DNA from: Phanerodontia chrysosporium
Taxonomy: Eukaryota; Basidiomycota; Agaricomycetes; Polyporales; Phanerochaetaceae
Assembly (NCBI GenBank): GCA_001910725.1
Contig: MJGA01000005.1
Coordinates: forward strand, 1,116,001-1,180,000
Direction of reading: 5' to 3'
DNA length: 64,000 nt
This document shows, in pieces, positions 6,440-41,218 of the stretch; position 1 is the stretch's first letter; each line of letters begins with the position of its first letter. The notes under the pieces were generated by a model that saw only the letters and a program-made list of their open reading frames with translations, did no database searches and was not told the DNA's origin. The translations under genes were made by a program, and so were the position numbers.

Positions 6440-6964
6440 TGTCACAGTTTTCTAATTCCCTACAGTTTTATTGTCGTAAGCGCCCAGTAGGCGCTAGGGG
6501 TTAGGGTTATGGACTAGAGTTAGGACAGGCACGTGTCAGAACGCGGTCACGTGTTGGTCACGTGCTGGGAATGAACTCAGAGTCATGTGAGAATCTTATC
6601 TTTATCTTATCTATGATGTAGACGCTCCGGTACAAGGGTATAGTAGGTAGCCGGACCCAGGGTCCGGGTAGTGTATTCTAGAATAGCGTAGAAGGTTCCG
6701 GACACATCCGGTACTCGGCTTTAGACTTTGCCGAGCCCGGAGTGTCTTGGCAAGTATCGCACCATCATCACGCCATCGCGCATGTGATGGGCAGTATCAA
6801 GGGTCTCGGGTAGTACCAGGGGTCCTCCCCTTCATGTATATATACCGGGCTCTGCTGGGCTTAAGTCCCCAGCATCATCTACCTCGTCTACCACCACTTC
6901 ACTCTCGCAGTCAAGTCTCACCCCACCAAAGCTACTAAGGTAAGTAGCGGGGTTTACTTTGACA
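6440..6964 (+). repeat. 5' LTR of element B
   Basis: 525 bp, TGTCACAG to TTTGACA. U3 holds three CACGTG boxes (about 6529-6564), a TTAGGG-like run near the left end, and a TATA box TATATATA at 6837-6844. The probable transcript start is AGCATCATCTA at 6871-6881, 34 nt after the TATA box. Confidence 0.95.
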
Positions 6965-6966
6965 TT

Positions 6967-6977
6967 TAGATGATGCT
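6967..6977 (+). other. Self-priming primer-binding site of element B
   Basis: TAGATGATGCT lies 2 nt after the 5' LTR. It is the exact 11-nt complement of AGCATCATCTA at 6871-6881, where the element's own transcript should begin. It is not recognisably complementary to a tRNA 3' end. This is the Tf1/sushi-type self-priming arrangement. Confidence 0.8.
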
Positions 6978-7816
6978 ATACCCCTTCGCGTCGATGTCGG
7001 CCTTAAGGGCTTGATCGTCGTACGCAGCGTGCTCAACGTCGTTGCCGGCAACGTCGGCACCTTTACCACTTATAATCTTGCATTCGCAGGTTCGCTTCTT
7101 CGATGCGCGGCTACCACCTGTAATAGGGGTAGTTCTTCATTTGTGGGGGCTGGCAACTGAGGTCCACCTGTAAAAGGAGGCTGTACGTCGTCGGCCATGG
7201 GGTCGCATGGGCATTGCTCGTCGAATTATCACAAGTGATGTTTGTGTAGGCAGGTTCGAAGTGCACATCGACCTGTAATAGGCGATGCTGTGCTCGGCCT
7301 GTCCGGAGACCTAAACGACTTGGGATCTGGGGGATACGTTGGGCCACCTGACAAGGGGCTTGACATGTTGAGACCCACCGTTGAACGCGTGGCGCCAGGA
7401 GTGCGACCACGTGGGCGGACTGTGCAATACAGCATGGGAATCTTCTTGCCGATCCACAGGCATAAGTGGCCACGCGACGCGTGGGGTGTTGAGTTCACCG
7501 CAAGGTGGCCGCATCCCCAGTACTGGATGACAAGCGGTAAGACGCTAGCATCTAGGAAGTCCGTGGAGATCGTAGCTGTAAGGCACGACAAACCATTTGC
7601 AGCGGGTGTGGAAACCCGACTGAGATCTCAAACTCCCCCATTGCGCATGTGCAGAGAGATAATGGCATGCCGTAAACGACTCTACCCACGAATGCGCGCG
7701 CATCAAGATTCGAACCGCAGCAAGAGAGGGCTGGTAACCCTCATTTTCTGAGCACTTTTCCTTTCCATAAGTCGTACCTGTAAAAGGACGCTGGTTGATT
7801 ATGTTATCACATAGAA
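6978..7816 (+). other. Untranslated leader of element B with a recurring ACCTGTAAWAGG motif
   Basis: The ~840 nt between the PBS and ORF0 hold no convincing gene. A 169-codon frame at 7242-7751 has no family resemblance and is probably fortuitous. A short motif, ACCTGTAAWAGG, recurs at about 7114, 7165, 7271 and 7776, with weaker forms near 7345, 8605, 8632 and 8684. Confidence 0.6.
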
Positions 7817-8602
7817 ATGAAGTTCTACAACAAGACCATCATTGCCCGCAACGCCGCTGCCCCCTACCCCTCCCTTGCCGAACGCATCTCGCTTCGCAAG
7901 GAGACCCAGGAAAAGGTCTACGAGGAGGTCAAGGAGAAGCTGGCCGAGATCGAGTGCCCCAAACAGCGCGAGAAGTATCTCCTCCAGCGCGAGCGTAACC
8001 GTCGCACCGTCACCCACCCCGTCCCGAAGGCCGAGCAGGATCGCATCAACGAGGAGTTCGAGGAACGCCTCTGGGCGCTCGAACAGGCCTCCAGGCTCAT
8101 CATGGAGATGAAGGCGCGCAAGCGTCTCAAGGACCGGATTTCGAATCCTGCTTCCTCACTCCTGAGTCGCCTGGGCCCCCCTCAGCACCTGTCTCAAGAA
8201 GAGGTCGAGGAGACATACGGGAACAACAGCGACATGCAAGGCAAGGTCCCGAAAGAAGCAGGTCGTATACAGAAGTCGCACATCATCGATCGAACCAAAG
8301 AGATGATGAATTTGTTCAACGCGGTAAACCTTCGTTTGGTCCCGCTCAGTGACCACCTCGTCGACATCGACAAGATTGACAAGGAGCTAGGCGATGAGGT
8401 CTCGAAGTTGCTCATCGACTTCGAAGACTTATACGACCACTTCGACGAGAACAAGGGGAGAAAGAAGTTGAAGGGAAAGCATTACAGGTGGATTACGAGG
8501 GATTTAAAGAAAATAAAATATGTATCCTTCGAAAATTTTAGTACTCAATATGTAGAGATCGCAAGGGAGCTCGTCGCTCTCAATATCTCATTCGAATACT
8601 AA
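7817..8602 (+). CDS. ORF0 of element B: extra protein encoded before gag
   Basis: A complete 261-residue frame with no stop, in contrast to gag and pol of the same copy. It is highly charged and probably helical: Lys/Glu-rich from residue ~25 to 110 with coiled-coil-like spacing, a variable middle, and a C-terminal module (WITRDLKK, then VSFENF and ARELV). The same module ends the pre-gag ORF of element A (WKKISRDLKK, HSFAEL, CRELI), and both have RKR-x-x-DRI-x-N in the middle, so the two are distant homologues. There are no zinc, membrane or enzyme motifs. It ends 133 nt before gag in a different frame. Function unknown; a capsid, RNA-binding or targeting accessory role is only a guess. Confidence 0.72.
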   Translation: MKFYNKTIIARNAAAPYPSLAERISLRKETQEKVYEEVKEKLAEIECPKQREKYLLQRERNRRTVTHPVPKAEQDRINEEFEERLWALEQASRLIMEMKARKRLKDRISNPASSLLSRLGPPQHLSQEEVEETYGNNSDMQGKVPKEAGRIQKSHIIDRTKEMMNLFNAVNLRLVPLSDHLVDIDKIDKELGDEVSKLLIDFEDLYDHFDENKGRKKLKGKHYRWITRDLKKIKYVSFENFSTQYVEIARELVALNISFEY

Positions 8603-8735
8603 ATCCACCTGTAACCCAATGTAATAAAAACTCCACCTGACACTGAACTTCTGTGTGATACATAAGAGTTTTCCTTACTTTCCAACTGTAAAAGTGGAAA
8701 GAATTTGTACTAACATACCTTTTGACTAAGAAACA

Positions 8736-10235
8736 ATGGCTGACGCTGATCAAATCGCTTAAATCAACTGGACCGACATCAACTTGTCCTCAGACAATAT
8801 CCAACTCTCTCACGAGACCACGGTTCAGGCCATCTCCTCGGTCGCAGCACCAGAGAAAATATCGCAGAACCAAAGGATCTTCATCCAAGAATCGATCTAC
8901 ACGGGGGTTGTTGAAGCCTCCCGTCAGAACGAGGCCCACGTGAGGCACCTATTCGATGGGTTCCTCAACATTTTTAACGGGGCTATGCCGACGATTCTGG
9001 AGAGAGTGGACGACGTCCGCAATGAGCTGGTCGAAACCCAGAAAATCACCTATGTCCAGGAAGCTGCGCTGGACAGCGTCAAGGGGATCGCAGACAATGC
9101 GATCAAACAGTTGAATGCCCTCCCAGCCGGTATCGGTTCAGGAGGTGGCGCACCTGCTCGCCCCAAGTCCGCCCAACCGCCGCTCTTCTCCGGTGAGAAG
9201 AATACGACGAAGTTCGAGGAATGGAAAAATCTAGTCGAACTTTGGAACAGCACCCAGGGCATCACGATGGACAGACAGCGCATCGTCAATGCGTTGTCCC
9301 TGCTGCGTGAATCGGCCCGGAAGCTGATGCAACCACTGTTGGACAAGAACGCCAGGGGCGAGGACATGGGCTCGGTTGACAGTTTCTGGGCTAGTCTCCA
9401 GACGGTATACGGTCAAAAGGATGTTACGCGCATGGCAACGAAGGACCTCGAGAAGCTACTCAACGACAAGTCGGCTCTCCAGAAGGACATCATCGACTAC
9501 TCGGTTCGCTTCAAGGTACTCCTCGACAACAGCAGCAAGCCGTTCACGGACGCGCACATGATTAACAAGCTGTACGACAACGTCGAGGAGAAGCTGGGCA
9601 TCTTCGTGCTGGGCCGCGGTTGCTCGAGTTGACCTACGGCTGCGTCGGAATTCATGACGTATTTCGTTGAGGCATACAAGGAACTCTACCCCGACCGCGC
9701 AGCGACGCACATCTTCAGCAAGGGAGACTCGCATGGCTCGGGTTCTACACCGGACCTGAATGCTATGGACATCAGCGCGGCTCAAACGGGCAAGGGCAAA
9801 GGCAAGGGGAAACAACAGGTGAATTCACAAGAAGCCAAGAAGGTTTCAACTCCCTGCACCATTTGCACTGAGCTGAAGAAGTTCGCGCGTGCTAAAACGC
9901 ACGTCACTTCGGACTGCTTCTCGCTCAAGGACCAGAAGCTGCAACAGTCCTCCGGTAACAACAACAATGGCAAGGCCTCCTCCTCAAGCGGGGGGAGTAA
10001 CAATCAAGGAAAAGGCAAGAATGCAGCGGCAATCGCCGCCAAGAAAAACTCCTTCAATCAAGCGAAGGCCAGGATGGCCAAATTAGAGAAGGAGATCGCG
10101 GGACTCGAGGCCGACGACGAAGTCGTCATCAATGCGGCCCATATCCACGAATGGACGGAGGAGGACGAGAAGGAGTTGAAACAGACTCCCCCCAGGAACC
10201 CGTTGATGAGCGGGAAGCTAGGCGTGCACGTATGA
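8736..10235 (+). pseudogene. gag: gag of element B, two in-frame stops
   Basis: The frame starts at ATG 8736 (MADADQIA), hits TAA at 8760-8762, resumes unbroken to TGA at 9630-9632 and then continues to 10235, about 499 residues in all with no frameshift. It holds a capsid-like helical region (residues ~130-300) and a basic Gly/Lys/Ser-rich nucleocapsid tail. The zinc knuckle is unusual, CTIC followed by eleven residues then HVTSDC, that is CX2CX11HX4C instead of CX2CX4HX4C. Both stops fit single C-to-T changes (CAA to TAA, CGA to TGA). Confidence 0.85.
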
Positions 10236-10299
10236 GGGCCCGAGCTGCTAAATACGCAAAATCGTCTGACCGGAAAGTGGATTTTCTCAACGACCTGTA

Positions 10300-13200
10300 G
10301 TGGATTCCTGCGTCCTACAGGTTAATAACGCTGATCATGTACCCACGGCCGAGTCTACACTGGATGTAGATAGAGTAATTGACATTGATGTATTGAACGT
10401 CTCGCGTAATAAATCATTATCGTTCAAACTTCCTATTACTCTGTGGGTATATGGTAAAAAAGCGCAGACAGAAGCCCTGGTTGATTCAGGCGCCACGACG
10501 AGTTTCATCAATCACAGCTTTGTCGAAAAGAACAATCTGGTAACTATTAAGTTGGCAAATCCGTATGAAGTAAAAAATGCGGATGGAACGATCAATAAAG
10601 CAGGACGAATCACTCACGCCCTGCGAGCCTACTTGGAAATTGGAACACACAAACACACTCAGTACTTACTCGTGACGGATTTGCACGACAAAGACATGTA
10701 TATAGGGTACAAGTTCCTACACTGGCATAACCCAGAAATCGACTGGGCAAAAGGCAATTGGGAGTTCACCAGATGTCCTGAATCATGCAAAGTCTCCAGC
10801 ATGACACAGAAAGTCCAAGCCCTCGACATCGAAATTGGCAATGACGAGGAGCTGACAGAGCTCGAACCAGAGCAATCTTGGGAATCCTCACTGGATGATA
10901 TTGGAGAAGAGGATATTCCCCACCACATCAACTGGGTTGATTTCAGTAACCCAAAGGAACGAACGCAAGCCGAGGCTGTCGCTGACATCCTGGAAAAGGA
11001 TGACGACGATACAGTTGACACCTCACAATGGAAATCACAGGTATCGAGTTGGGTTCACAAATTCGAAAGCATATTCAGTAAGACCAAGTCTGAACGCATG
11101 CCCACCCACAAACCATGGGACCATGCCATTGAATTTGAGGAAGGAGCTAAGTTGCCCCCAATCGGAAAAGTGTACCCACTGGACCAGAGACAACGCTCGT
11201 CTTTCAACGAGTGGATTCGTGAGGAACGCCGGAAAGGTTACATAGAAGAGTCGAAGTCACCCATCGCTGCATCATTCTTTTTCGTAAAGAAAGCCGATGG
11301 CAGTTTGCGACCTTGCATGGATTACCGCCCCTTGAACAGAATTACAAAGAAGAACCATTACCCTATCCCTCACATCGCCGATTTAATCGACGCACTATCT
11401 CAGGTGTCGATATTCACAAAGATCGACCTTCGATGGGGATATAACAATGTCCGCATCAAGGAAGGTGACGAGTGGAAAACGGCTTTTGTAACCAAGGACG
11501 ATTTATTCCAGGCCAAAGTTATGTACTTTGGATTCGCAAACGCACCGGCAACATTCCAGAATATGATGAACAACATCTTCGAGGACCTTATCTGTCAAGG
11601 AAAGGTTATGGTCTACCTCGATGATATCCTCATCTTCGGCAACGACCGCGAGGAACATCGAAAGATCGTACACGAAGTGTTGCAGTGACTGGAAGACAAT
11701 GACCTCTTCGCAAAGGCAGAAAAGTGCCTATTCGAGAAGGACAAACTCGCCTATCTCGGCATGATTATATCCAAAAATCATGTAGAAATGGACCCTGCTA
11801 AAGTCACAGGCATAACGGAGTGGCCCGTACCGACCAAGGTCAAGCACGTTCAGGCATTCCTTGGATTCGCGAATTTCTATCGCAGGTTCATTAAAGACTT
11901 TGCGAAGATCACGAAGCCACTCACGGTACTCACCAAGAAGGATCAACCATGGGAATGGGGTCCCGACCAGCAGAAGGCGTTTGACGACCTGAAAAAGGCG
12001 TTCACTTCTGCACCAATTCTACGAATTCCGGACGACGTTAATCCGTTCAGGCTCTCTACCGACGCGAGTGACTTCGCGATCGGCTCGGTTCTGTCACAAC
12101 TCGACCCAAACGATAAGCTTTACCATCCGGTAGCCTTCCACTCCAAGTCACTCAATGTTCACGAAAGAAACTATGAAATATACGACAAGGAGATGTTGGC
12201 CATAATCCGCGGGTTAGAAGAGTATAGGCACTATCTAGAGGGACATCCGGAGAAATTCGAGATATGGTCAGACCACCAAAACCTGACTTATTTCAAGCAG
12301 GCCCAGAAATTGTCTCGCCGTCAAGCTCGTTGGGCATTATACCTAACAAGATTCCATTTCACACTACACCACAAGCCGGGTAAAACAATGGAAGCTGAAG
12401 ACCCTCTGTCCAGGAGACCAGATCATGAAGAGGGGGTAGAACTCGATAATCGCGACCATATTCTTCTGAAGCCAGAATTTTTCGCCAATCTGCTCGAAGT
12501 CTGCGCGATCGATGCCTCCCATGACGCTCCAGTAAACGACGATTTACTGCTCCAAGAGGTCAAGAAGGCTCTGTTATCCGACGAAGTCACCAAGAACTAT
12601 CAATTGTTACTCAAATCAGGCCCACGCGAGTTCAAGAAACCGTTAGAGGAATGGAACTTTGAGAATGGATTGCTACTCTTCTGGGGACATATCTACATAC
12701 CAAAGGATGAGAATGAGGACTTACGACGACGAGTAGTCCAAATGCACCACGACCACCCATCAGCCGGACATCCAGGCAGATGGAAGACCTACGAACTTGT
12801 CTCCCGAAACTATTGATGGCCGGGAATGTCTGTCTTCATCAAGAAATACGTCACAGGTTGTGACACGTGTCAGCGAATGAAGAATCGCACACAGCAGACC
12901 TACGGACAACTCATGCCCAACAAGGTACCTAATGGACCTTGGGAAGTTATTACCATTGACTTGATTACTCAGTTGATGCCGTCAAGAGAAAAGGATGCCA
13001 TTCTAGTCGTTGTATGCCGACTCACCAAGAGAGCACGTTTCTTTGCGATAACGAACAAATTCTCTGCTAAAAACCTCGCAAAGATCCTGATGGATAGAAT
13101 TTACCCTATCCACGGACTACCTTTGCAAATAATCTCAGACAGAGGAACTCAATTCGCGGCGGAACTCTTTCAAGAATGGTGTAAGCTACTCGGTATCGAG

Positions 13201-14448
13201 TCAGCGATGTCTACGGTATACCACCCTCAGACAGACGGTCAAACAGAACGAGTAAATCAAGTTCTAGAACAGTACCTACGCTGCTTCGCTGATAATGTCA
13301 ATCACGAGGACTAGGTCGATTATCTGCCCACCGCAGAATTCGCCTACAACAATGCAGCACACGAAAGTACAAAGGACACGCCGTTCTTTCTAGAATATGG
13401 TAGACACCCACGGGCAGGACCAACTCTCGACAAGCAAGCCAAAAGCAAAGACTTGAACGAGATATTCAGACTTAGACAAGACGCCCAAGACAAGGCCAAA
13501 GCAGCCCTACAACTAGCTGCAGACCGTATGAAGTGGTACTACGACCAGAACAAGCAAGAAGTGCCGTTTAAAGTCGGTGACAAAGTCTTGCTGAATTCAA
13601 AGGATTACCAAACCACTCAACGCACGCTGACACCGAGGTACCTAGGACCGTTCGAAATCATCGAGCAACTGTCCAAAGTAACCTTCAAGGTGAAACTGCC
13701 TCCACAATATAGGGCATATCACCCGGTGTTTCATGCTAGTAAATTAATCCCCTATTCTACACCCTCCATCGTCAGCCAACGAGCTGCACCACCAGAGCCA
13801 GAAGTTCATGACGGAGAGCTTGAGTACGAGGTCAAGAAAATTCTCAACCATAAGACTACCGGGTGTGTCAGAAAACGAAACTGGTACATGGTTCGATGGA
13901 AGGGTTATGGGCCAGAAGAAGACAAATGGGAACCAGAGAGTAATCTGGAAGGTGCTAAAGAGAAGATCGCAGAATTTTGGCGCGTTCGGAACGAAGAAGC
14001 ACCTATGGAAACAGACGGTTTAGAACTCGATGAAGAAACCCTTCAGATCATTCTAGATGGTGGAAAAACACCATCCAAGAGCACTACCGAGGCAGCAGAC
14101 TGGGACCTGTATGCAGCAGAAGATGTAACAATTCCAGCAGGAGACCGCAAACTCATCAGCACTGGCATTCACATCCGAGTTCCAAATGGAACCTACAGAC
14201 GAATTGCATCATGATCAGGACTTGCACTCAAAGGCATTCATGTCGGCGCAGGCGTTATCGACCGAGACTACACGGGCATTGTCAAAATATTACTCCTTAA
14301 CACAAGCGACAGTGACTTCACAGTCACGACTGGAGATAGGGCAGCTCAATTGATCTTGGAGAAAATTGCCGATGTCGACATAGAAGTTGTCGAGACGCTA
14401 CAGTTAATCGATCGTGGTTCAGGCGGGTTTGGATCCACTGGAAAATAA
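10300..14448 (+). pseudogene. pol: pol of element B (PR-RT-RNase H-IN-chromodomain-dUTPase), four in-frame stops
   Basis: A single frame of about 1,382 codons interrupted at 11686 (TGA), 12814 (TGA), 13312 (TAG) and 14212 (TGA). Domains in order: retropepsin (LVDSGATTSFIN), RT (KIDLRWGYNNVRI, VYLDDILIF), RNase H (FRLSTDASDFAIG, YDKEMLAII), integrase zinc site (HHDHPSAGH...CDTCQ) and core (TIDLI, SDRGTQF, QTERVNQ), GPF module, chromodomain (EYEVKKILNH...RWKGYGPEEDKWEPESNL) and a C-terminal dUTPase ([38 protein letters not shown]). The frame is +1 to gag and has no ATG before the protease, so the ancestor made Gag-Pol by recoding. In the dUTPase several family residues are also lost by transitions (AAD for AAG in motif 1; S-stop for P-R in motif 2). 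Confidence 0.93.
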
Positions 14449-14475
14449 GAAGTCTTCTCTCGGGAGTTCGAATCT

Positions 14476-14488
14476 GAAGAGGGGGTAC
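14476..14488 (+). other. Polypurine tract of element B
   Basis: The purine run GAAGAGGGGG lies directly before the 3' LTR, ending with TAC. In Gypsy elements this primes plus-strand DNA synthesis. Confidence 0.75.
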
Positions 14489-15013
14489 TGTCACAGTTTT
14501 CTAATTCCCTACGGTTTTATTCTCGTAAGCGCCCAGTAGGCGCTAGGGGTTAGGGTTATGGACTAGAGTTAGGACAGGCACGCGTCAGAACGTGGTCACG
14601 TGTTGGTCACGTGCTGGGAATGAACTCAGAGTCATGTGAGGATCTTATCTTTATCTTATCTATGATGTAGACGCTCCGGTACAAGGGTATAGTAGGTAGC
14701 CGGACCCAGGGTCCGGGTAGTGTATTCTAGAATAGCGTAGAAGGTTCCGGACATATCCGGTACTCGGCTTTAGACTTCGCCGAGCCCGGAGTGTCTTGGC
14801 AAGTATCGCACCATCATCACGCCATCGCGCATGTGATGGGCAGTATCAAGGGTCTCGGGTAGTACCAGGGGTCCTCCCCTTCATGTATATATACCGGGCT
14901 CTGCTGGGCTTAAGTCCCCAGCATCATCTACCTCGTCTACCACCACTTCACTCTCGCAGTCAAGTCTCACCCCACTAAAGCTACTAAGGTAAGTAGCGGG
15001 GTTTACTTTGACA
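14489..15013 (+). repeat. 3' LTR of element B
   Basis: 525 bp with the same ends as the 5' LTR, about eight mismatches to it. AGCATCATCTA is at 14920-14930. It is followed by the GGGTG target duplication at 15014-15018. Confidence 0.95.
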
Positions 15014-29884: not shown

Positions 29885-30484
29885 TATCACAAAAATGTGC
29901 TGCCCTAGCGCCTATACACCAAACCAACCAGCAATACTCACTGGCAAAGGTTTACTTGGACTACAAAGGGTGTAGCCAAGCTTGAAGACGAGGTATAGAG
30001 ACTAGAGAGGTGAGATGCGATGAGATTGAAGCTGGGGAGGCACCCCCAGCCCTCAGGGTTTATATACATGTGCACCAGGTCCCCAGGGACCGGTGTTCAG
30101 GGTCCTAGCTATCTAATACCTACTACGCTATTGGCTAGTGCCCTACAGGCATTTCTACATTCTCCTACACGTTCCTAAATGTTCCTACGATGTCCCAGAA
30201 ACCTCCAGAACGTTCCAGCACTGTCCGGACCTGTCCAGAGACCCCCAGGACTTTTTAGTCCATTCCGGAGTGTCTCGGCGCTTCCAGACCCTTGCCTGCT
30301 TCTAGACCTTCGACCATGTGACCCTGGGATACCGCACGTGTGCGCATCACGTGACTGCCATATCATGTGACCAGCCCCGAGCCTAGGGCTGTCACTCCAG
30401 CGCTTCTGCATGTCACAGTTCGGAGTAATCGCTTCTGTCACCTGCTGCCCCTAACTCTAGGGGTTGAGACGAAAAACTGTGACA
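29885..30484 (-). repeat. 3' LTR of element A
   Basis: 600 bp, reverse complement TGTCACAG...TGTGATA. About five mismatches to the inner LTR and about nine to the outer 5' LTR, by eye. Confidence 0.95.
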
Positions 30485-30496
30485 TTACCCCCAATT
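30485..30496 (-). other. Polypurine tract of element A
   Basis: On the minus strand ATTGGGGGTAA lies directly before the 3' LTR. Confidence 0.65.
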
Positions 30497-30519
30497 CTAG
30501 CTGAACCTCCTGGTGAAGC

Positions 30520-33500
30520 CTAAATACCAGTGGAGCCAAAACCATCGCTGCTGCGAATGGTTGAGTCGAGGCAAGAAACCGGAGTTGGTTCGGCGTAGGA
30601 GATTCTTTCGAGCACGAGTTGAGCGACACGATCACCCTTGTGGAATGTAAAGGTGTCGGGCGAGTTGTTGATGAGTAGAATTTTGAGCTCTCCTCGATAA
30701 TCTCGGTCAATAACGCCTGCTCCTATGTCGATGCCTCTGAGGCTGAGGCCACTCCGTGGTGCGACTCGAGCGTAGGTACCTGGTGGAGTACACATTCGAA
30801 GGCCAGTTGACGCTAGCTTGCGATCATGGGGCTTGAGCGTAAGGTCTTCCGTGATGAAAAGATCCAACCCTGCGCTTTCTGGCGAGCCACATGAGGGGAG
30901 TTTTGCGTCCTTGTTCATGAGCTCGACCTCGAACTGGTCGTCTGCTCCCCAAGATTGGAGTAGCGCGAGTTCGCGCACGAAAAACTCATCCTCCTCGTCG
31001 TGGTGGCGTTGCAGAAGGGAAATTGCCCTCGGCGCATCTGGGTATTTCTTGTGGAATTGTTTAACCTTCGCCATAGCGTGCTTGAGATTGGGCAAGTATT
31101 CCCATGTGTCGCTATGCTCGTCGTAGCCTCTCCACCGTACTCGGTACATGACACGGCCTTTAGAGTCTGGCTGTGCATCTACAATCTGCTCAACCTCGTA
31201 CTCCTCGTCATCACCCACACGAATGGGTGGTAGGGGTTTGCGCGTGCGATTGGCGACCTCATCCTCGACGTGCTTCGTGAGCTTGCTTGCGTGGAAGACC
31301 GGGTGAATCTTCACATGGACTGGTAACTTCAGCTTGAAGGTGACCGGTCCCAGCTGCTCTACGATCTCGTAAGGGCCTACTCGCTTTGGTGCCAGTTTTT
31401 TGGAGGGAACTCGAAGGTTCAGATCCTTTGCGTCAAGCCAAACACGGTCTCCGACCTTGAACAAGGGTTCTGATTTACCCTGGTCGTAGTACCACTTCAT
31501 TCGCTCTGCAGCCAGCACGAGCGCGGCTTTCGCCTGATCTTGGGCCTCCTGTCTAAGCTTCGTCCAGTCGTCCAGTTCTGACAACCTTGTAACACGGTCC
31601 TGCTCTGGGAACATGCGTGGATGACGGCCATATTCGACGAAGAATGGCGAGTTCTTGGTGCTTTCATGCGCCTGGTTGTTGTACGCAAACTCGGCAGAGG
31701 GCAAAAGGTACGCCCAGTCGTCCTGCCTGAAGCTTGTGTAGCAACGCAGATACTGCTCCAATGACTGATTAACTCGCTCAGTCTGGCCGTCTGCCTGAGG
31801 GTGAAACGCTGTAGTCATTGCTGACTTGATCCCCAGGAGTCTGCACCATTCCTGGAAGAGTTTCGCGGCGAACTGCGTTCCTCTATCCGAAATGATCTGT
31901 CTGGGTAGGCCGTGCAAAGGCCAAACACGCTCATAGAGCAAATTTCCCAGATCCTTGGCTGAAAACTCCTTGGTGATGGGGAGGAAATGTGCTCGCTTGG
32001 TTAAGCGGCAAACGACTACGAAGATAGCGTTGTAACCGTCCGACTCAGGCAAGTCCGTGATCATATCGCATGAGATTATCTCCCAGGGTTCCGACGGAAC
32101 CTCGTTCGGTTGTAGCAGGCCAGCAGGCTTCTGGTTGATGTTTTTATGCGACTGGCAGACTTCGCAGCCTGCGACGTACTTCTTGACGTAAACTGACATT
32201 CCTGGCCACCAGTAGTTGCGCGACAGCAACTCCAACGTCTTCCATCGTCCAGGGTGTCCAGCCCCAGGGAAGTCGTGGTGTAACTTGAGTAGATCCGCCC
32301 TAATCTTGTCGTCCTTGGGCACATACACCTTGCCTCGGTGCAGTAGTAGCCCGTCCTCGAGGTGCCATTCTGCTAAGTCCTTCCCGAACTCTCTTGGTCC
32401 TTTCAACATCAGGTCTTTGTATGACTTGGTGACTTCGTCGTCCAGCAGGGCTTTTCTGATCCTTTCTAGCAGTTTGCTATCGTCCACTATCGATGAATGG
32501 GTTGGTTGCATGGCTCGAATCGCGAAATATTCTGGCTTCAAAAGGACTTTTTCACGATTGTCGCAATCCACCCCCAATTCATGATCTGGCCTCCTGGACA
32601 TTGGATCAGCCCACTTCATCGTCTTTCCAGGCTTGTGCTCCAACTTGAAGTGGAAACGTGTGAGGAAAAGGCTCCAACGTGCTTGGCGTCGCGTCAAGTC
32701 TTGTGCCTTGCGGAAATAGGTCAGATTCTGGTGATCTGACCATATTTTGAATGGTAGAGGGTGTCCCTCCAAGTGGTGGCGCCATTCCTTCAGCGCGCGG
32801 ATGATGGCTAGCATCTCCTTGTCGTATATCTCATAGTTGCGCTCGTGTATGCCTAGCGCCTTGGAGTAAAACGCGACAGGGTGCCAAAGGCCATCCTCGC
32901 CCAGTTGCTCGAGTACAGCCCCCGTAGCAAAGTCTGACGAGTCGCATTCGAGCCTAAAAGGGTGCTCGTCGTCTGGGATCTTGAGAATAGGCGCAGTAGT
33001 GAATGCTCTCTTGAGCGTATCGAGGGCATCCTGTTGCTCAGGCCCCCATTCCCACTCTTTGCCTTTGCGGGTAAGCTCTGACAATGGGCGAACAATCTTG
33101 CCAAAGTCTCGAATAAACCGTCGGTAGAAGTTGGCAAAACCCAGGAAAGCCTGGACATCTTTGACCCTCTTGGGTATGGGCCAAGATAAAACGCCATCTA
33201 CCTTCGATGGATCCATCTGAACCGACCCCTTGCTGATGATCATTCCGAGGTATTCAATGCTATCTGTCTCGAAGAAGCATTTTTCTGGCTTAGCAAACAG
33301 GTCGTTGTCGCGTAGCCGCTGCAATACCTCCCGAACTAATCGCCGATGGTGGTCCAAGTCGTTCGTGAAGATGAGAATGTCGTCTAGGTAGACCATGACA
33401 TGCCCTTCTCGAATCAGATCATCGAGAATATGGTTCATCATGCGCTGAAAGGTTGCTGGTGCATTGCTGAGGCCGAAGAACATCACTGTAGGTTCGTATA

Positions 33501-34581
33501 AACCGAAAGGTGTGATGAAGGCCAGCTTCCACTCGTCTCCTTCCTTGATTCTGACGTTGTTATACCCCCATCTAAGGTCAATCTTGGTGTATATACTAGC
33601 CTTAGATAGTCGATCTATAAGGTTTGAGATCTTGGGTATAGGGAAGCGGTCTTTCTTGACGACTTCGTTCAGCTTCCTATAGTCTTGCACCAAGCGCAAT
33701 GAACCGTCCTTCTTCTTCACGAAAAAGACTGGTGCTGCCAGCGGGGATTTACTCGGTCTGATGTATCCCTTGGCGAGATTCTCCTGAATCCACTCGTCCA
33801 GAGAATTCCTCTCTTCTGGCGACAGCGAGTAGTTACGAGCTGGTCGAGGTAGGGTAGCTCCGTCGATGAACTCGACAGCGTGGTCATAAGGCTTTCGTAC
33901 GGGTAACCGTTCGCTTGCACGCTTCGAAAACACGTCCCCATAGTCCTGATACTGTGCAGGGACAAGCTGCTCCCAGCCCTCGATTCCCTCCAGCGAACGA
34001 ATACTGCACATCGCTGCGATCTTCCGGCAGGTTACTGCCAAAATGCGGCCATCTGGGGTGGAAGGGTCGACCCACTGAAGCCAAGGCTCCTCTTCTTCCT
34101 CCTCGAAGTCCTCGTCCATGGGTTCTTCGAGCTCTGCTTGTGCTACTTGAGCCTTGTGGCTGGTAAAGCGACAAGAGTCTGGGCATCTGGAGTACTTCCA
34201 CTCGCCCTTATCCCAATCTATCTCAGGATTATGCTTCTTCAAGTAGCTAAAGCCAAGGAACATGTCCTTTCCACCCAGATCTGTAATGAGGCATGCTTGT
34301 CTAGAGACATGGTCCCCTACGGCTACGTCGAGCCAAGCATACTCCTCAATACTGCCACACTTGTTCCTGGAGCCGTCTGCGTTGTAAACGCGTATCTCCC
34401 TGGCCAGCTGGTTCGTCTTCAGCTTATGCTTCTTGACGAAGCGATGGCTAATGAACACAGCATAGGCCCCTGAATCAACCAGCGCGGTAGTCTGCACTCT
34501 GACTTCCTTACCCTGACTCAAAGTTACTGGAACGATAAAGCTCGATTTAGAGGGAAGACTAGAGACTTTTCTCGATTCCAA
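30520..34581 (-). CDS. pol: pol of element A (PR-RT-RNase H-IN-chromodomain-dUTPase), intact
   Basis: 1,353 codons from a TTG. The frame actually stays open to ~34660, overlapping the last 25 nt of gag in the -1 frame. No ATG precedes the protease, so Gag-Pol recoding is likely. Domains: retropepsin (ALVDSGAYAVFIS, Asp ~36), RT (~240-430; KIDLRWGYNNVRI, VYLDDILIF ~398), RNase H (FRLECDSSDFATGAV ~545; WSDHQNLTYF), integrase zinc site (HHDFPGAGH...CEVCQ ~770-815) and catalytic core (CDMITDL, SDRGTQF, QTERVNQ), GPY module, chromodomain (~1120-1178, EYEVEQIVDAQ...RWRGYDEHSDTWEYLPNL) and dUTPase (~1225-1353). The dUTPase has all five motifs: [42 protein letters not shown] and SDGFGSTG, including the catalytic Asp in motif 3. 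All key residues of RT, RH and IN are present. Confidence 0.97.
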   Translation of the reverse strand: MESRKVSSLPSKSSFIVPVTLSQGKEVRVQTTALVDSGAYAVFISHRFVKKHKLKTNQLAREIRVYNADGSRNKCGSIEEYAWLDVAVGDHVSRQACLITDLGGKDMFLGFSYLKKHNPEIDWDKGEWKYSRCPDSCRFTSHKAQVAQAELEEPMDEDFEEEEEEPWLQWVDPSTPDGRILAVTCRKIAAMCSIRSLEGIEGWEQLVPAQYQDYGDVFSKRASERLPVRKPYDHAVEFIDGATLPRPARNYSLSPEERNSLDEWIQENLAKGYIRPSKSPLAAPVFFVKKKDGSLRLVQDYRKLNEVVKKDRFPIPKISNLIDRLSKASIYTKIDLRWGYNNVRIKEGDEWKLAFITPFGLYEPTVMFFGLSNAPATFQRMMNHILDDLIREGHVMVYLDDILIFTNDLDHHRRLVREVLQRLRDNDLFAKPEKCFFETDSIEYLGMIISKGSVQMDPSKVDGVLSWPIPKRVKDVQAFLGFANFYRRFIRDFGKIVRPLSELTRKGKEWEWGPEQQDALDTLKRAFTTAPILKIPDDEHPFRLECDSSDFATGAVLEQLGEDGLWHPVAFYSKALGIHERNYEIYDKEMLAIIRALKEWRHHLEGHPLPFKIWSDHQNLTYFRKAQDLTRRQARWSLFLTRFHFKLEHKPGKTMKWADPMSRRPDHELGVDCDNREKVLLKPEYFAIRAMQPTHSSIVDDSKLLERIRKALLDDEVTKSYKDLMLKGPREFGKDLAEWHLEDGLLLHRGKVYVPKDDKIRADLLKLHHDFPGAGHPGRWKTLELLSRNYWWPGMSVYVKKYVAGCEVCQSHKNINQKPAGLLQPNEVPSEPWEIISCDMITDLPESDGYNAIFVVVCRLTKRAHFLPITKEFSAKDLGNLLYERVWPLHGLPRQIISDRGTQFAAKLFQEWCRLLGIKSAMTTAFHPQADGQTERVNQSLEQYLRCYTSFRQDDWAYLLPSAEFAYNNQAHESTKNSPFFVEYGRHPRMFPEQDRVTRLSELDDWTKLRQEAQDQAKAALVLAAERMKWYYDQGKSEPLFKVGDRVWLDAKDLNLRVPSKKLAPKRVGPYEIVEQLGPVTFKLKLPVHVKIHPVFHASKLTKHVEDEVANRTRKPLPPIRVGDDEEYEVEQIVDAQPDSKGRVMYRVRWRGYDEHSDTWEYLPNLKHAMAKVKQFHKKYPDAPRAISLLQRHHDEEDEFFVRELALLQSWGADDQFEVELMNKDAKLPSCGSPESAGLDLFITEDLTLKPHDRKLASTGLRMCTPPGTYARVAPRSGLSLRGIDIGAGVIDRDYRGELKILLINNSPDTFTFHKGDRVAQLVLERISYAEPTPVSCLDSTIRSSDGFGSTGI

Positions 34582-34652
34582 AACTGATCTAATACATTCT
34601 ACTGAGTCGGGAGGGTAAAGGAAATCTAAAAACGGACCAGATGTCGCAGACT

Positions 34653-36233
34653 CTACATCGGTCCCTGCAGAAAATCCTCATCATCTGAGAACACCACGCG
34701 GTTAATCTTCTGCGCCTTCTCCTTTGAAGACGACTTCTTCTTTTGCTTGGTCTTGGGGGTATCTTCTTCTTCTGAGCTATCCGAGCTCGACTCCTCGTCA
34801 GAGGCTACCTCCTGGAATCTCTCTGAGTCGCTGGCGTACACCTCGCGCGCACTGCTCTTCGTCTGGCGAGAGCCCTTATCCTTCTCCTTTCCCTTTGAAG
34901 ACGAAGCCTTTGACGAACTGGCCACCGGTGCATTGGTGGTTTTACTCGACGACGTCGAAGAACCTGAGTTGCTCTTCTTCGATGGACACTCCTTGGCGAT
35001 GTGGCCTTTGCCTCCACACTGAGCGCAGCAGCCTTTCTTCTTCGCCTCCTCGAACGACATGGCAACCTTCTGAACTTTGGCTGTCTTGCCTTTACCCTGG
35101 GCTGAGCCCTTCTTCAAGGCGTCGACATCCATAGCGTCAGGGTCTTTCGACGACTGAGGCTGTCCAGAGAGTACGGTGCCCGTCAAGAGACGTTGATCCT
35201 GCAGAATCTCCTGAACATCCTTCAGCCAACCATCCCAGGTCGTAGCCCACTGAGCACGACCACGGGCTGCCAGTACATCGGCGGCAGCACGAGGGGTATG
35301 GGCATAGGCTTTGACCAACAGTTCCTCGTTGGAGAAGCCAGTTTGGCGAGCCAGCGAACGGAAACGAGCAGCAAACTCATTGAAAGTCTTCTCGTTCGTT
35401 CCTTTCTTGCTGACAAGCTGCTCAAACTCTGCCCTTGCCCTGTCCTTCTTGTCGGTCTGTTGGAATCCTTTCTGGAGTTCGTTCACAAAGTTGGTCCAAG
35501 TACCAAGGGGCTTTGAGTCTGCCACCTTGTCGAAGTACTCTTGCATGACCTTCTTTGCTGAACCTCGCAGGTAAGTCATCGCCGTCTCTATCTTCTTTTC
35601 GTCGTCCATTACGCCACGGTGGCGCAACCAGAGTGCCATCGACTCGAGCCAGTCATCCAGCTTACTAGCCTTATCACCATTAAAGGTGTCAGGCTCCTTC
35701 ATGGTAGGGAACAAAGACTGAGACAACCCAACGTTGCCTCCACTAGTGCCTTGCTGAACCAACACTTTCAAGCTCTCGTTCTCCTGCTTCAGCACCTGCA
35801 TAGCGTTCTGCAAAACGCGATTTTGGTTCTGAGCCTCTGCTATCTGCGCAGACAAGTGCTGTCTAGTCTGCTCAAGAGTGTCTATCTGCTCCTGAAGTGT
35901 CTTGGCCTCAGTTTTGCGTTTGCGAAGGGCTTCCTTCAAGCGAAGGACTTCTGAACCCATTTCCGACCTTACTTGAGCTATCTCAGCCTTTACCCAGTTA
36001 CCCAGGCTGTCAACGAGGGCCTTGAAGTCGCCAGGAGTCAGTCCTTCCTGAGCGGCTTGTACCCATGACTGGCTGTACTCTTCGTAAGAGGTCGAAAGCG
36101 GCGCAGCGGCCAAAACTGGGGTAGGGCCTCCCTCAGCCATAGAGCCGAGTTCTAACGCTCCCCAAGGGTCCATACCACTTGAACTCGCAGCAGAACGCAA
36201 ACCAAAGTCAACAGGATTTGAATTGAGCGACAT
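34653..36233 (-). CDS. gag: gag of element A, intact
   Basis: 526 residues. Residues ~85-155 are a strong coiled coil (Leu/Gln/Glu/Arg heptads, EVLRLKEALRKRKTEAKTL onward). The capsid region follows (FNGDKASKLDDWLESMALWL, then KIETAMTYLRGSAKKVMQ). A canonical CCHC zinc knuckle CAQCGGKGHIAKEC lies at ~407, and then an acidic Ser-rich tail ends in EDFLQGPM. Gag forms the virus-like particle and binds the element RNA. It starts 29 nt after the ORF0 stop in a different frame. The stop TAG overlaps the open pol frame. Confidence 0.95.
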   Translation of the reverse strand: MSLNSNPVDFGLRSAASSSGMDPWGALELGSMAEGGPTPVLAAAPLSTSYEEYSQSWVQAAQEGLTPGDFKALVDSLGNWVKAEIAQVRSEMGSEVLRLKEALRKRKTEAKTLQEQIDTLEQTRQHLSAQIAEAQNQNRVLQNAMQVLKQENESLKVLVQQGTSGGNVGLSQSLFPTMKEPDTFNGDKASKLDDWLESMALWLRHRGVMDDEKKIETAMTYLRGSAKKVMQEYFDKVADSKPLGTWTNFVNELQKGFQQTDKKDRARAEFEQLVSKKGTNEKTFNEFAARFRSLARQTGFSNEELLVKAYAHTPRAAADVLAARGRAQWATTWDGWLKDVQEILQDQRLLTGTVLSGQPQSSKDPDAMDVDALKKGSAQGKGKTAKVQKVAMSFEEAKKKGCCAQCGGKGHIAKECPSKKSNSGSSTSSSKTTNAPVASSSKASSSKGKEKDKGSRQTKSSAREVYASDSERFQEVASDEESSSDSSEEEDTPKTKQKKKSSSKEKAQKINRVVFSDDEDFLQGPM

Positions 36234-36262
36234 CTTGATTCAAAAACGCGCAGATACAAAAA

Positions 36263-37075
36263 CTAATCGAGGTTCTTCTTCAAAAACAACCAATCTTCAC
36301 CCAACTCCTGAATCAGCTCCCTGCAATGCTCAGCGAAGCGTGGCTTAAGCTCAGCGAAGCTATGTGCGCCTGCCTTCTTCAAATCCCTCGAAATCTTCTT
36401 CCACTCCCTCGTGGTGTACTCCTTCGTCTCGACGATGGTCTGAAGGTGTTTGCGAATGTTGTCGAACCTCTCCTTGAACAAGCCCAAGGTGTAGAGCTCG
36501 TGTTCAGTCAACCCAACTCGAAAACGCTGCTCGTCTAGCTTCTGAAAGAACGGACCCAAGTGGTTAAGGGCGCCGTTGAACTTTCGTCCGTAGTCGCGCA
36601 GCTGATGGACCTGAGTGTTGGTGTGAAAGCGAAGGTCTTTGGGAATGGGTTTGACTTCGATAGGGGGAGTAGGGGGAGGTTCAATACGTTCGATGAGGGG
36701 TAGAGGGGGAGGGGCGTTCGCGATGCGATCGAGTAGGCGGCGCTTGCGCTGTTCGTTGCGATAGTCTTCGAGCTGAAGCTGGTGCTTGAAGTCGTTCAAG
36801 TCTGCTTCACGAGCAAGCCTTTCACGACGACCAGGGACAGGGGTGTAGGGTGTAGTGCGAGGTTTGTACGCAGGGCGCGGCTTCCCAACGTCTTTGAAGC
36901 GGTGAAGGTTCGAGATCTTGATGCGCTCAAGCAAGGGTTTGCCAGAGCTCTCGTCCTTAGCAAGGACAAAACGGTTCCTAGCAGCTTTAGGCACTAGTAA
37001 ACACGGGTCAGCCTGTGTACACAAGCCAGAAAACTTCTCCACACAGGCAAAGCGCAAGGCTTTCCTGCCCGCCAA
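36263..37075 (-). CDS. ORF0 of element A: extra protein encoded before gag
   Basis: 270 codons, intact, and the first frame after the leader. The N-terminus is basic (residues ~1-100), followed by a proline-rich segment (APPPLPLIERIEPPPTPP, ~115-140) and a charged helical C-terminal half ending REWKKISRDLKKAGAHSFAE, then HCRELIQELG. The C-terminal module and RKRR-x-LDRIAN match ORF0 of element B, and both stand in the same position. I see no enzyme, zinc or membrane motif. The start may be an alternative codon further in; the ATG used is the first in frame. Function unknown. Confidence 0.78.
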   Translation of the reverse strand: MAGRKALRFACVEKFSGLCTQADPCLLVPKAARNRFVLAKDESSGKPLLERIKISNLHRFKDVGKPRPAYKPRTTPYTPVPGRRERLAREADLNDFKHQLQLEDYRNEQRKRRLLDRIANAPPPLPLIERIEPPPTPPIEVKPIPKDLRFHTNTQVHQLRDYGRKFNGALNHLGPFFQKLDEQRFRVGLTEHELYTLGLFKERFDNIRKHLQTIVETKEYTTREWKKISRDLKKAGAHSFAELKPRFAEHCRELIQELGEDWLFLKKNLD

Positions 37076-37384
37076 CCCTCAACGAAGAGAAAGGGGTATT
37101 ACTGCGGGTTTCCACGCCACGCAGCTAAAACTGGTTGGACAGGGTATTACACCCTTAGTCCAGCACTACAACAGGGGTTACTCGTCCGCAGGCAAAGCCC
37201 TCTGAGGTGGGTTACACCACGTTCCCCTGTCTGTACCTAAAAAGGTACTATAGTGCCCACTTGCGCCTGTGGATCGGCAGAAAACTGAACAAAGCGCAAA
37301 AGCACTTGTTCAAACAAGCCCCCAGAACCCAAAGCAATAACCTAGGCCACCAAAGGTGGAGTAGGTTGGCTAGCTTCAATCTTC

Positions 37385-37984
37385 TATCACAAAAATGCGC
37401 TGCCCTAGCGCCTATACACCAAACCAACCAGCAATACTCACTGGCAAAGGTTTACTTGGACTACAAGGGGTGTAGCCAAGCTTGAAGACGAGGTATAGAG
37501 ACTAGAGAGGTGAGATGCGATGAGATTGAAGCTGGGGAGGCACCCCCAGCCCTCAGGGTTTATATACATGTGCACCAGGTCCCCAGGGACCGGTGTTCAG
37601 GGTCCTAGCTATCTAATACCTACTACGCTATTGGCTAGTGCCCTACAGGCATTCCTACATTCTCCTACACGTTCCTAAATGTTCCTACGATGTCCCAGAA
37701 ACCTCCAGAACGTTCCAGCACTGTCCGGACCTGTCCAGAGACCTCCAGGACTTTCTAGTCCATTCCGGAGTGTCTCGGCGCTTCCAGACCCTTGCCTGCT
37801 TCTAGACCTTCGACCATGTGACCCTGGGATACCGCACGTGTGCGCATCACGTGACTGCCATATCATGTGACCAGCCCCGAGCCTAGGGCTGTCACTCCAG
37901 CGCTTCTGCATGTCACAGTTCGGAGTAATCGCTTCTGTCACCTGCTGCCCCTAACTCTAGGGGTTGAGACGAAAAACTGTGACA
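37385..37984 (-). repeat. Inner 5' LTR of element A
   Basis: 600 bp. It lies directly before the leader that leads into ORF0, so its TATA box and start site are the ones nearest to the genes. Primer site copy at 37372-37382. Confidence 0.93.
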
Positions 37985-38261
37985 GGTATTACTGCGGGTT
38001 TCCACGCCACGCAGCTAAAACTGGTTGGACAGGGTATTACACCCTTAGTCCAGCACTACAACAGGGGTTACTCGTCCGCAGGCAAAGCCCTCTGAGGTGG
38101 GTTACACCACGTTCCCCTGTCTGTACCTAAAAAGGTACTATAGTGCCCACTTACGCCTGTGGATCGGCAGAAAACTGAACAAAGCGCAAAAGCACTTGTT
38201 CAAACAAGCCCCCAGAACCCAAAGCAATAACCTAGGCCACCAAAGGTGGAGTAGGTTGGCT

Positions 38262-38272
38262 AGCTTCAATCT
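38262..38272 (-). other. Self-priming primer-binding site of element A
   Basis: On the minus strand AGATTGAAGCT follows the LTR end after 2 nt. It is the exact 11-nt complement of AGCTTCAATCT at the predicted transcript start in R (38423-38413). Same length and spacing as in element B. Confidence 0.8.
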
Positions 38273-38274
38273 TC

Positions 38275-38874
38275 TATCACAAAAATGTGCTGCCCTAGCG
38301 CCTATACACCAAACCAACCAGCAATACTCACTGGCAAAGGTTTACTTGGACTACAAAGGGTGTAGCCAAGCTTGAAGACGAGGTATAGAGACTAGAGAGG
38401 TGAGATGCGATGAGATTGAAGCTGGGGAGGCACCCCCAGCCCTCAGGGTTTATATACATGTGCACCAGGTCCCCAGGGACCGGTGTTCAGGGTCCTAGCT
38501 ATCTAATACCTACTACGCTATTGGCTAGTGCCCTACAGGCATTCCTACATTCTCCTACACGTTCCTAAATGTTCCTACGATGTCCCAGAAACCTCCAGAA
38601 CGTTCCAGCACTGTCTGGACCTGTCCAGAGACCCCCAGGACTTTTTAGTCCATTCCGGAGTGTCTCGGCGCTTCCAGACCCTTGCCTGCTTCTAGACCTT
38701 CGACCATGTGACCCTGGGATACCGCACGTGTGCGCATCATGTGACCGCCGTATCACGTGACCGGCCCCGAGCCTAGGGCTGTCACTCCAGCGCTTCTGCA
38801 TGTCACAGTTCGGAGTAATCGCTTCTGTCACCTGCTGCCCCTAACCCTAAGGGTTGAGACGAAAAACTGTGACA
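38275..38874 (-). repeat. Outer 5' LTR of element A
   Basis: 600 bp. The TATA box is at 38456-38449 (minus), with the probable transcript start AGCTTCAATCT at 38423-38413. It is followed by the ACTAC target duplication. Confidence 0.94.
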
Positions 38875-41218
38875 ACTACTGCCTTGGGTGTTCGTGTGGA
38901 GGGAAAGGTCTTGCTGGGAATGTAGGTATACAGAGGGTAGGATAGTGTGTAGAGGTAGAAGAGGTTAGTCTTCTAGAAGGGGAAAGGTAATAAGACTTAA
39001 GTACAAGTAACACTTGTAAGTAAGACCTTAGTAACCAAAGAGTAAGTAGAGTAAGCCTTGCTCGCTTATCTTTATTTATAACTGCGGACCGAGTAACAAC
39101 CAAGTAAGTATAGCCTGCTTGCTATAATTTACACGTAAACCGTGAATCGTAGACAAATAACTAAACCTTCTCAACCAAATAGCTCAACTACCAGGCGCCT
39201 TGCTGGACTAAAGAGCTAACGTAAAAAAACTGTAATACCATAGACGTAACTAGAGTAAGCAATAGACTACCACCACAATGCCTAAGTGCACTGGTGGACC
39301 AACTAATCTTACTGTAGATGGAGAACCGTAGACTAAAGACTGAGTAAATGATAGAATACCACCACAATGTCTAATTACACTGGTGGACTAACTGCCCTTA
39401 CTAGAACTGAATCACACTTAAACTGATAACACACAGTCCACACCAAGAGATGGTAGTGGTTGAGGTGAGAAAATAGCTGGCTGCTTCCAATTGGTGATCT
39501 ATTGAGAGAAAAAAAGAGAGTGGTACAGAGTATGGTTTTATTTGACCGTGTTTGGTCAATTTGTACAATGCTAGAATATTCTACAAGGTGCTACACTATT
39601 CTACTTCCTTCCTGCAACTCCTTTCCACTTCCTTTTCCGCCTGGCACCTTCTTTCTGTACCTTTCTAGTAGATTCCATTCCTTTCCATACTTTTCTCTGA
39701 CCTTCCACACTTCTCTTCCCTTGTTCCAGAGATGCTTGGCGCATTCTCAGGCCTAATTGGGTAGTTACTTTCCCATACCGCCCAAATATAGCCTGCCTTT
39801 TCCCACAGTAATCCCAAGATGGCTGCGTCTTCTCACGCCTCTTCCCTTTGGATCTCTGTCTTCTCACGCCCTTGCTCTGAACTCCCACGCTTTACTATAC
39901 ATTCCCACACCTTGAATCCTTCTTCTATATTAAGCTCTGCTTCATTGTGCTAATCCTGCTATGTCTGAATGAGCCTCATTTCATCCATATTTTGTGGCAA
40001 ACAGGTTTGGCACATGATAACTGACACTGCCCGAATACTAGTTTGCCTCACAACTAGTTTCCTAGATCGCCGAGGAGGCACTATCATCTTTGATGAATTC
40101 CCTTGCCAAGATACTCCAAGTCGTCATCCTATTGACACAGTCTCAGCCTGATGCAGCCTCGGAATACTGCCAGCTGATATAGCCTCATAACACAGTCCAG
40201 GTATAGCCTCGCCACACAGTCTGCGTTGCAGCCTTACCAGCTATGCTAAGCACTGCCCATCAGCTTATATAACTGTACAGCCTGCTTTGAAATCCCATAG
40301 TATGGTATATAAGAGTAGCACTTCTTGCTTCTGTCTGTCATCTCAACCTCTTGGTTAATACATAGAGGTAAGCCTGTTACTTGTGTAGTAGTATACATCA
40401 CTAATATAATTTGGTCAATATGGATAGCTGGATAAATTTGTTCATTGCTGTGTGACTTGCTCTGCCGCACCCTGTTATCGACTTCCCCATCTGTCCTCCC
40501 TTGTGAAGCATTGAGTCTTTGCTTTGCAACACATCCTTCACCCTCAACTATTACCTCAGTGCATATATACTCCTCATAGAAGAGCTCTACAAACAACTCG
40601 ATGAAAGAGCCAGTCATCCTCACCTCTGCGAGTGCATTACCCACATCGTCCACCATGACCATACAGCTGAAGCGCTATGAGCTGAGGCAGCAAAGAAGGT
40701 CCTCTGCACATTATATGCAGGTCTTGCATAGCTCAATGTTGATCTAACCCAATGCATCAATGATCTCGACAAGGAGATCGACAGCATCCACGCAACACTT
40801 CGGGAAACAGTCATGCAGATGGACTTGGCCATCAGTAGCAAGATGCAACTTGTTCGAGAAATCAAGGCAAACCATCACGCTCTTCTGCACGAGTTTGCCC
40901 AAGGCAATGGCAACGTCCAGGCCCTTATCACTGAAGTCTGAGACATGTACTTCAATCAGCCTACCAGTGAGACATTCAAACGAGGACAGCTGGTCTGGCT
41001 CAAGTGCACCGCACAGCATCAAGGTCATTCTCAAATCAACCGACATCGCCAATTGTCTGCAGGTTCCTTTCATACTGCCCCTACTCTGCGTCGCTGTCGC
41101 AACAATAAAGATAAGGGAAGGGCCCCTCCAACTGGGGCTGAGGTCATTGACGTTGATGAAATTAAGTAGGAGAAGTCTTAAAGGATCTCACAGAGTTTGA
41201 TCATCAAGGAGGAGCTAA

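Follow-up and report, generated by a model that had tools for sequence, protein, structure and literature searches.

How does a retrotransposon translate a conserved gene that has no start codon? The question is raised by an open frame ahead of gag in an LTR element of Phanerodontia chrysosporium. The window, that is, the whole 64,000-nucleotide stretch analysed (contig MJGA01000005.1, positions 1,116,001 to 1,180,000), carries two elements, A and B, each with such a frame, termed ORF0. A sequence-only reading had claimed that the two ORF0s are distant homologues and an old selected gene. Our reading, to which we give a probability of about 75%, takes ORF0 to be an accessory gene conserved in a fungal chromodomain Ty3/gypsy clade and expressed via spliced RNA, with splicing choosing between ORF0 and Gag-Pol. 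Splicing itself is what we infer, from conserved splice-like signals.

ORF0 in three families of chromodomain elements

Element A, a chromodomain Ty3/gypsy LTR element on the minus strand (29885..38874), was delimited by LTR comparison, flanks and Pol domains, and lies between copies of a target-site duplication, ACTAC (29880-29884 and 38875-38879). Its pol (30520..34677) encodes protease followed by RT, RNase H, integrase, chromodomain and dUTPase, the last five found by a domain scan. Domains, LTRs and target-site duplication place the element among the Ty3/gypsy chromoviruses, and the dUTPase match (E 3.7e-37) places it among dUTPase-containing Metaviridae. Upstream lie gag (34653..36233) and, ending 29 nt before the gag ATG, ORF0 (36263..36993, stop codon 36263-36265); ORF0, gag and pol occupy three different frames, all on the minus strand. 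The 600-bp LTR adjoining ORF0 (37385..37984) and an extra 5' copy (38275-38874) are 99.0% and 98.3% identical, respectively, to the 3' LTR (29885-30484), all three on the minus strand. The 5' end is a recent 890-bp direct tandem duplication of the LTR plus 290 nt of leader, at 37095-38874. At other A loci, about 594 nt 5' of the LTR contained a second same-direction LTR-length match in L007 only.

Element B lies on the plus strand (6440..15013) between 525-bp LTRs that are 98.5% identical (6440-6964 and 14489-15013), with the target-site duplication GGGTG. Its gag and pol are interrupted by stops in the window copy, and its chromovirus domains were found in broken frames by a scan of frames other than that of the integrase core. 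The dUTPase match is partial (E 4.3e-6) and the gag-profile match weak (E 0.013). Stops interrupt gag at 8760-8762 (codon 9) and 9630-9632; the first of these is a sense codon in most of the other B copies. The rest of the window includes an open transposase frame with DDE_3 and Tc3-type helix-turn-helix matches (52092-53117), a Copia-type remnant with a weak RVT_2 match below its cut-off (43151-44062) and, at 2653-3300, what is presumably a host gene, its frame containing the CLASP N-terminal domain. The neighbouring frame, 1126-2652, matched no Pfam family.

The ORF0s had been described as 260-270 codons long, each coming first behind the leader, in a frame unlike those of gag and pol. Open frames of 271 codons (36263-37078, minus strand) and 267 codons (7799-8602, plus strand) are indeed so placed in A and B, although the first 28 codons of the A frame are probably intron, as argued below. 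Their homology holds. BLASTP aligned the two with 29.6 bits (E 4e-5, 25% identity over 159 aa), and hhalign of four-sequence profiles, the comparison proposed at the outset, gave a probability of 83.9, E 7.7e-6 and a score of 44.0, against 13.7 for a reversed profile and 23.6 for the best of 100 column-shuffled profiles. P0007, the end of which was judged adapter-like, was left out of the B alignment. The RKRxxDRIxN and C-terminal motifs named in the sequence-only reading are aligned, but the likeness is wider, and the N-termini match as well. A six-frame genome search with the A-type protein P0003 returned B-type ORF0s as the best non-A matches among those listed (best E 8.9e-4).

Protein searches returned 3 matches for the A query, 4 for B and, with scoring confined to the 7996 candidates sharing most words, 13 for the joint alignment. 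None of the matched proteins carries a precomputed Pfam domain. The homologues, of like length and 15-70% identical, come from other fungi and metagenomes; the named organisms are Phanerochaete sordida, Obba rivulosa and Postia placenta. A single scan of viral contigs found no relative. Three proteins, P0013-P0015, combine an A-like N-terminus (MPK...LLERI...HxFD) with a B-like C-terminus (W-R-x-I-K-R-D-L-K-(K/R)-I...V-S-F) and thereby settle that the A and B ORF0s are related.

A genome search with P0013 (E about 5e-4) uncovered a third family, C, with 153 genomic matches to its ORF0, 106 of them near full length as counted from the list. Across the 39.0-Mb genome (145 contigs) A gave 127 matches and B 54, fragments counted in for all three families. 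Against the ORF0 profile, the C profile scored 61.2 (E 1.4e-8; best of 100 shuffles 23.4). A and C ORF0s matched directly at E 1.3e-5, and a direct comparison of B with C gave no significant match. Pol domains from RT to chromodomain and an LTR repeat mark C as a chromovirus; the Pol frame scanned holds no dUTPase.

The bodies of A and B had been called non-homologous, which is true of the LTRs alone. These share no convincing similarity (28 nt at 79%, E 0.011, plus an identical 12-nt start), whereas Pol is 49-65% identical between A and B (48-65% across A, B and C) and Gag matches at E 8e-18 (27% over 153 aa). Gag of A also matches that of C (24% over 249 aa, E 2e-8); comparison of C with B Gag showed no similarity. 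By these alignments A and B are sister chromovirus families, and since their Pol and Gag are homologous, the position and motif of ORF0 were evidently inherited with the element. Judged from sequence divergence, ORF0 has travelled with its element, changing at a rate close to that of Gag or a little above it, and far above that of Pol.

ORF0 is under purifying selection in all three families of this genome. The sequence-only reading had asked for dN/dS; we computed Nei-Gojobori pN/pS, which is far below 1 throughout: 0.154 in A (22 of 26 rows, the four dropped including two second matches within one locus; control frames 0.96 and 1.25), 0.130 in B (31 of 33 rows, two dropped; control frames 1.05 and 1.59) and 0.130 in C (7 of 9 rows; control frames 1.35 and 1.70). 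In B the constraint on ORF0 equals that on Gag, the gag part giving 0.162 (27 of 32 rows; control frames 1.37 and 1.32). A chance open frame preserved by the near-identity of copies, most A copies examined being about 99% identical, is refuted by the pN/pS values of the three families (0.13-0.15, where control frames give 0.96-1.70) and by the like-length homologues elsewhere. Neither outcome named in the sequence-only reading as refuting it, an insignificant profile match or a ratio near 1, was obtained, and the claim of an old selected gene stands.

The start of ORF0 and candidate splice signals

The 271-codon frame of A contains no methionine codon. Between the ATG at 37569, which overlaps the TATA box (TGTATATAAA, 37559..37568, minus strand), and the gag ATG at 36233, element A has no ATG in any frame. 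Base-neighbour frequencies predict 9.2, and none of 2000 simulated sequences was free of them. The gag ATG is thus the first of the unspliced transcript. The TATA-to-gag stretch is ATG-free in 21 of 24 distinct A copies; the exceptions, L064, L065 and L066, hold 7, 1 and 6 ATGs.

Homologues begin Met-Pro(-Lys) where A reads Val-Pro-Lys (codon 29 of the A frame, at 36993), although the initial Met of database proteins may conceal GTG starts. The conserved protein starts at codon 29, and 36994-37078 is probably intron. Internal methionines are also absent from P0001, P0002, P0003, P0010 and the C protein; B-type and intermediate proteins have 3-7. Two Obba rivulosa homologues, one of them short, have one each, and both read Val-Pro-Lys at the start site.

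Candidate splice signals lie on both sides of this presumed intron. The proposed 5' splice site, GCCA|GTGAGTAT (GCCA|GTGAGT; 37440..37441, minus strand), is within the LTR and is the top-scoring donor in 36100-37600. The candidate acceptor (36994..37011, minus strand) comprises a branch-like CTGAC (37007-37011) and the 3' splice site TTTACTAG|TG. A scan for acceptors gave two AG candidates, both behind this one CTGAC, the sole CTRAY paired with an acceptor: the first, CTGACCCGTGTTTACTAG|TGCC, lies at the Val-Pro-Lys codon, and the second AG ends at 36978. The proposed 448-nt intron (36994..37441, minus strand) would comprise the last 57 nt of the LTR plus the leader and would hold the first 28 codons of the open frame. 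Joining GCCA|GTGAGT to CTGAC-N10-TAG|TGCCTAAA yields GCC-ATG-CCT-AAA-GCT, with ATG at the conserved Met-Pro-Lys start followed by 242 codons lacking any internal Met. A|GTGAGT is present in 24 of 24 distinct A copies and the AG|TG acceptor in 23, the AG being lost in L066; this agreement adds little, as the copies are nearly identical.

Family C shows a matching arrangement independently. Its ORF0 reads Val-Pro-Lys at the start site and has no internal Met, an A|GTRNGT donor precedes an AG acceptor by 60-61 nt in nine of nine copies, and the acceptor reads AG|TG in eight and AG|TA in one. Joined, the junction gives A-TG-CCG-AAA; the 39 Mb genome holds no exact match to ATGCCGAAAGACGTC. Over the roughly 1.47 kb from the presumed transcription start to gag, counted in eight of the nine copies (the old copy in L047 was left out), ATGs fall almost entirely inside a 57-nt LTR stretch. 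Past it, six of the eight copies are ATG-free before gag, against 8.6 ATGs expected; L041 and L042 carry one private ATG each, and L045 has no ATG at all. This 57-nt stretch (L041:3419-3475), a second intron-like feature of C, lies behind, and ends in, the repeat TTGGTCAATACGGACAG.

In shuffled leaders (4000 shuffles each) the combination of an A-ending donor, a branch sequence and YAG at the given place had a frequency of 0.0010 for A and 0.0008 for C, with patterns that are fungal consensuses, untrained on this host and fixed after A had been seen. A donor alone was not rare (0.24 for A, 0.09 for C).

The ORF0 of B has an ATG of its own and spans 261 codons plus stop (7817..8602, plus strand; pN/pS as above). 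The candidate 5' splice site AG|GTAAGT (6938..6945, plus strand) again lies within the LTR, and AAG|GTAAGT is kept in 32 of 33 copies. A candidate 3' splice site AG (7813..7814, plus strand) sits just 5' of the ORF0 ATG (7817), and all 33 of 33 copies, despite several indels between them, have an AG 0-2 nt before that ATG. A further candidate, a branch-like TACTAAC plus AG (8708..8730, plus strand), lies 5' of the gag ATG (8736); TACTAAC is found in 32 of 33 copies and the strict AG-AAA(C/T)A-ATGG in 31 of 33. The leader between the donor and the gene starts contains many ATGs, so that under scanning both ORF0 and gag of B would need splicing. CCTGTAA occurs five times in the leader and spacer of element B (7117-8608), four times with (A/T)AGG following; in the window's other 55.4 kb it occurs three times, plus three on the opposite strand.

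A spliced ORF0 RNA would thus use a donor within the LTR in A and B or in the leader in C, where the 60-nt intron candidate sits downstream of the LTR. In A and C the intron would split the initiator codon (A|TG), so that a start codon would exist in spliced RNA only; since unspliced RNA is almost cleared of ATG up to gag, scanning ribosomes would bypass ORF0 there and start at gag. Spliced RNA of A and C would then yield ORF0 and unspliced RNA Gag. In B one donor and two acceptors, before ORF0 and before gag, would give two spliced RNAs. The intron of A and B would take out the LTR end and leader, so spliced RNA should not be copied. A genome search allowing up to two mismatches found no genomic copies of the spliced forms of A, C or B gag. 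Such absence would follow from copying of unspliced RNA alone, but also from a lack of splicing.

The same GTG could instead act as a near-cognate start: ORF0 of A and C would be translated from unspliced RNA at the GTG of Val-Pro-Lys or at an upstream TTG or GTG, and leaky scanning would reach gag. A near-cognate CUG starts the glyco-Gag of MLV. The GTG stands at the conserved start site in both families, and leaky scanning too would require the nearly ATG-free stretch up to gag. Against this, the GTG of A is in a context (TTACTAGTGCC) that we judge poor, and the GTGs of A and C sit in an AG|TG acceptor with an A-ending donor. A near-cognate start would also leave the conserved donors unexplained, and family B keeps its acceptors before real ATGs. 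We consider it improbable and retain spliced expression of ORF0 as the preferred reading.

The ORF0 protein and its possible role

The sequence-only reading had recognised no known retroelement protein in ORF0, and neither did our searches. Neither window ORF0 reaches a Pfam cut-off, and Foldseek gave no match at E <= 0.001 in the PDB (A and B models) or BFVD (A model). The best Pfam match among 17 homologues was AIP3, in one member (E 7.4e-4); this and the single-member matches to liprin, Myb and Syntaxin_2 were dismissed as coiled-coil noise. Sequence matches in the PDB (best E 0.0023), to designed coiled coils and similar entries, point to no assignable family, and VIA-align rows resembled common helical bundles and were set aside. 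A leucine-rich export-like motif, present within the last 40 residues in 16 of 18 proteins, is not used as evidence, being no better than shuffled tails, which give 0.24-0.90.

AlphaFold2 modelled the ORF0 of A with pLDDT 76.7 and pTM 0.47 and that of B with 76.3 and 0.41. Common to both models are a long helix (37-38 residues), an LxRI-containing linker and, in the C-terminal part, four main helices; the B model alone predicts two further helices and two short strands at the N-terminus. By their order the main helices agree in the two predicted folds, both of which have a pTM below 0.5. The N-terminal 110 residues are basic (net charge +11 in A, +7 in B and +7 in C). The predicted protein thus has a basic N-terminal part with the long helix behind it, the LxRI linker and a C-terminal helical bundle.

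What might such a protein do? It could counter or tune host silencing or copy number, as a silencing suppressor or by self-restriction, as Ty1 p22 restricts its own element. The high copy numbers given above (A 127, B 54 and C 153 matches, counting fragments) would suit such a role, but sequence and fold searches support neither form of it, and we regard it as unlikely. A somewhat better candidate is a structural role in the particle: Gag may be split, with ORF0 as its matrix-like N-terminal portion, or ORF0 may be some other particle component. ORF0 lies just 5' of gag in A, B and C, its N-terminus is basic and the protein predicted helical, and in B its constraint resembles that of Gag (0.13 vs 0.16). 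It has, however, a separate frame and its own stop. Neither ORF0 matched the Retrotrans_gag, Ty3_capsid or CCHC profiles, nor did any of 17 proteins at E <= 0.1; gag profiles do recognise gag of A and of C. Separate frame and absent matches are still compatible with a structural role. We rate this reading as possible, though with the odds against it.

The most likely function, put forward tentatively and by analogy with CERV of Cer1 (below), would be control of the element's own unspliced RNA, through export, protection or packaging. Doubtful as a whole is a bolder version, a new switch design in which an A|TG-split initiator and more than 1 kb cleared of ATG by selection separate exclusive ORF0 and Gag-Pol/genome programmes, with ORF0 as a Rev/CERV-like regulator in fungi.

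Comparison with known systems

In searches of an open-access literature library we found no description of the ORF0 family, nor of any LTR element whose start codon is made by splicing. Ty3/gypsy elements with dUTPase in Pol, as here, are the Metaviridae of Phanerochaete chrysosporium and Postia placenta (PosPlaTy3 families). The legend of Figure 3 in PMC2864245 names an 'add. ORF', function unknown. That frame may or may not be ORF0; its description, in the part available, mentions neither splicing nor a missing start codon, unlike ORF0 here. Additional ORFs of plant LTR retrotransposons resemble ORF0, by description, in encoding a protein beyond gag and pol (PMC7264820, in part). The barley BARE retrotransposon separates RNA pools through splicing, as proposed here; what its spliced RNA encodes is Gag, out of a single ORF and with no extra protein, unlike the ORF0 elements (PMC3735527).

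By analogy, the closest working parallel to ORF0 would be CERV of the C. elegans LTR element Cer1, an accessory protein made from spliced mRNA and needed for export of unspliced RNA (PMC10309623, in part). Both systems would set an accessory protein from spliced mRNA beside unspliced gag-pol or genomic RNA, here as suggested by splice signals. The likeness is one of description: a role in RNA export was shown for CERV and is a guess for ORF0, and a splice-built start codon, proposed for ORF0, is not mentioned for CERV in the accessible text (PMC10309623). We rate a spliced-RNA accessory gene of a retroelement as a known kind and the start of ORF0 as unusual. Fungal Ty3 elements gain an additional conserved protein family, together with a concrete route for its expression. 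If the spliced junction is real, ORF0 is a coding sequence cleared of AUG, and splicing alone decides which protein is made. Fungal LTR retrotransposons would then join retroviruses and Cer1 in managing spliced versus unspliced RNA.
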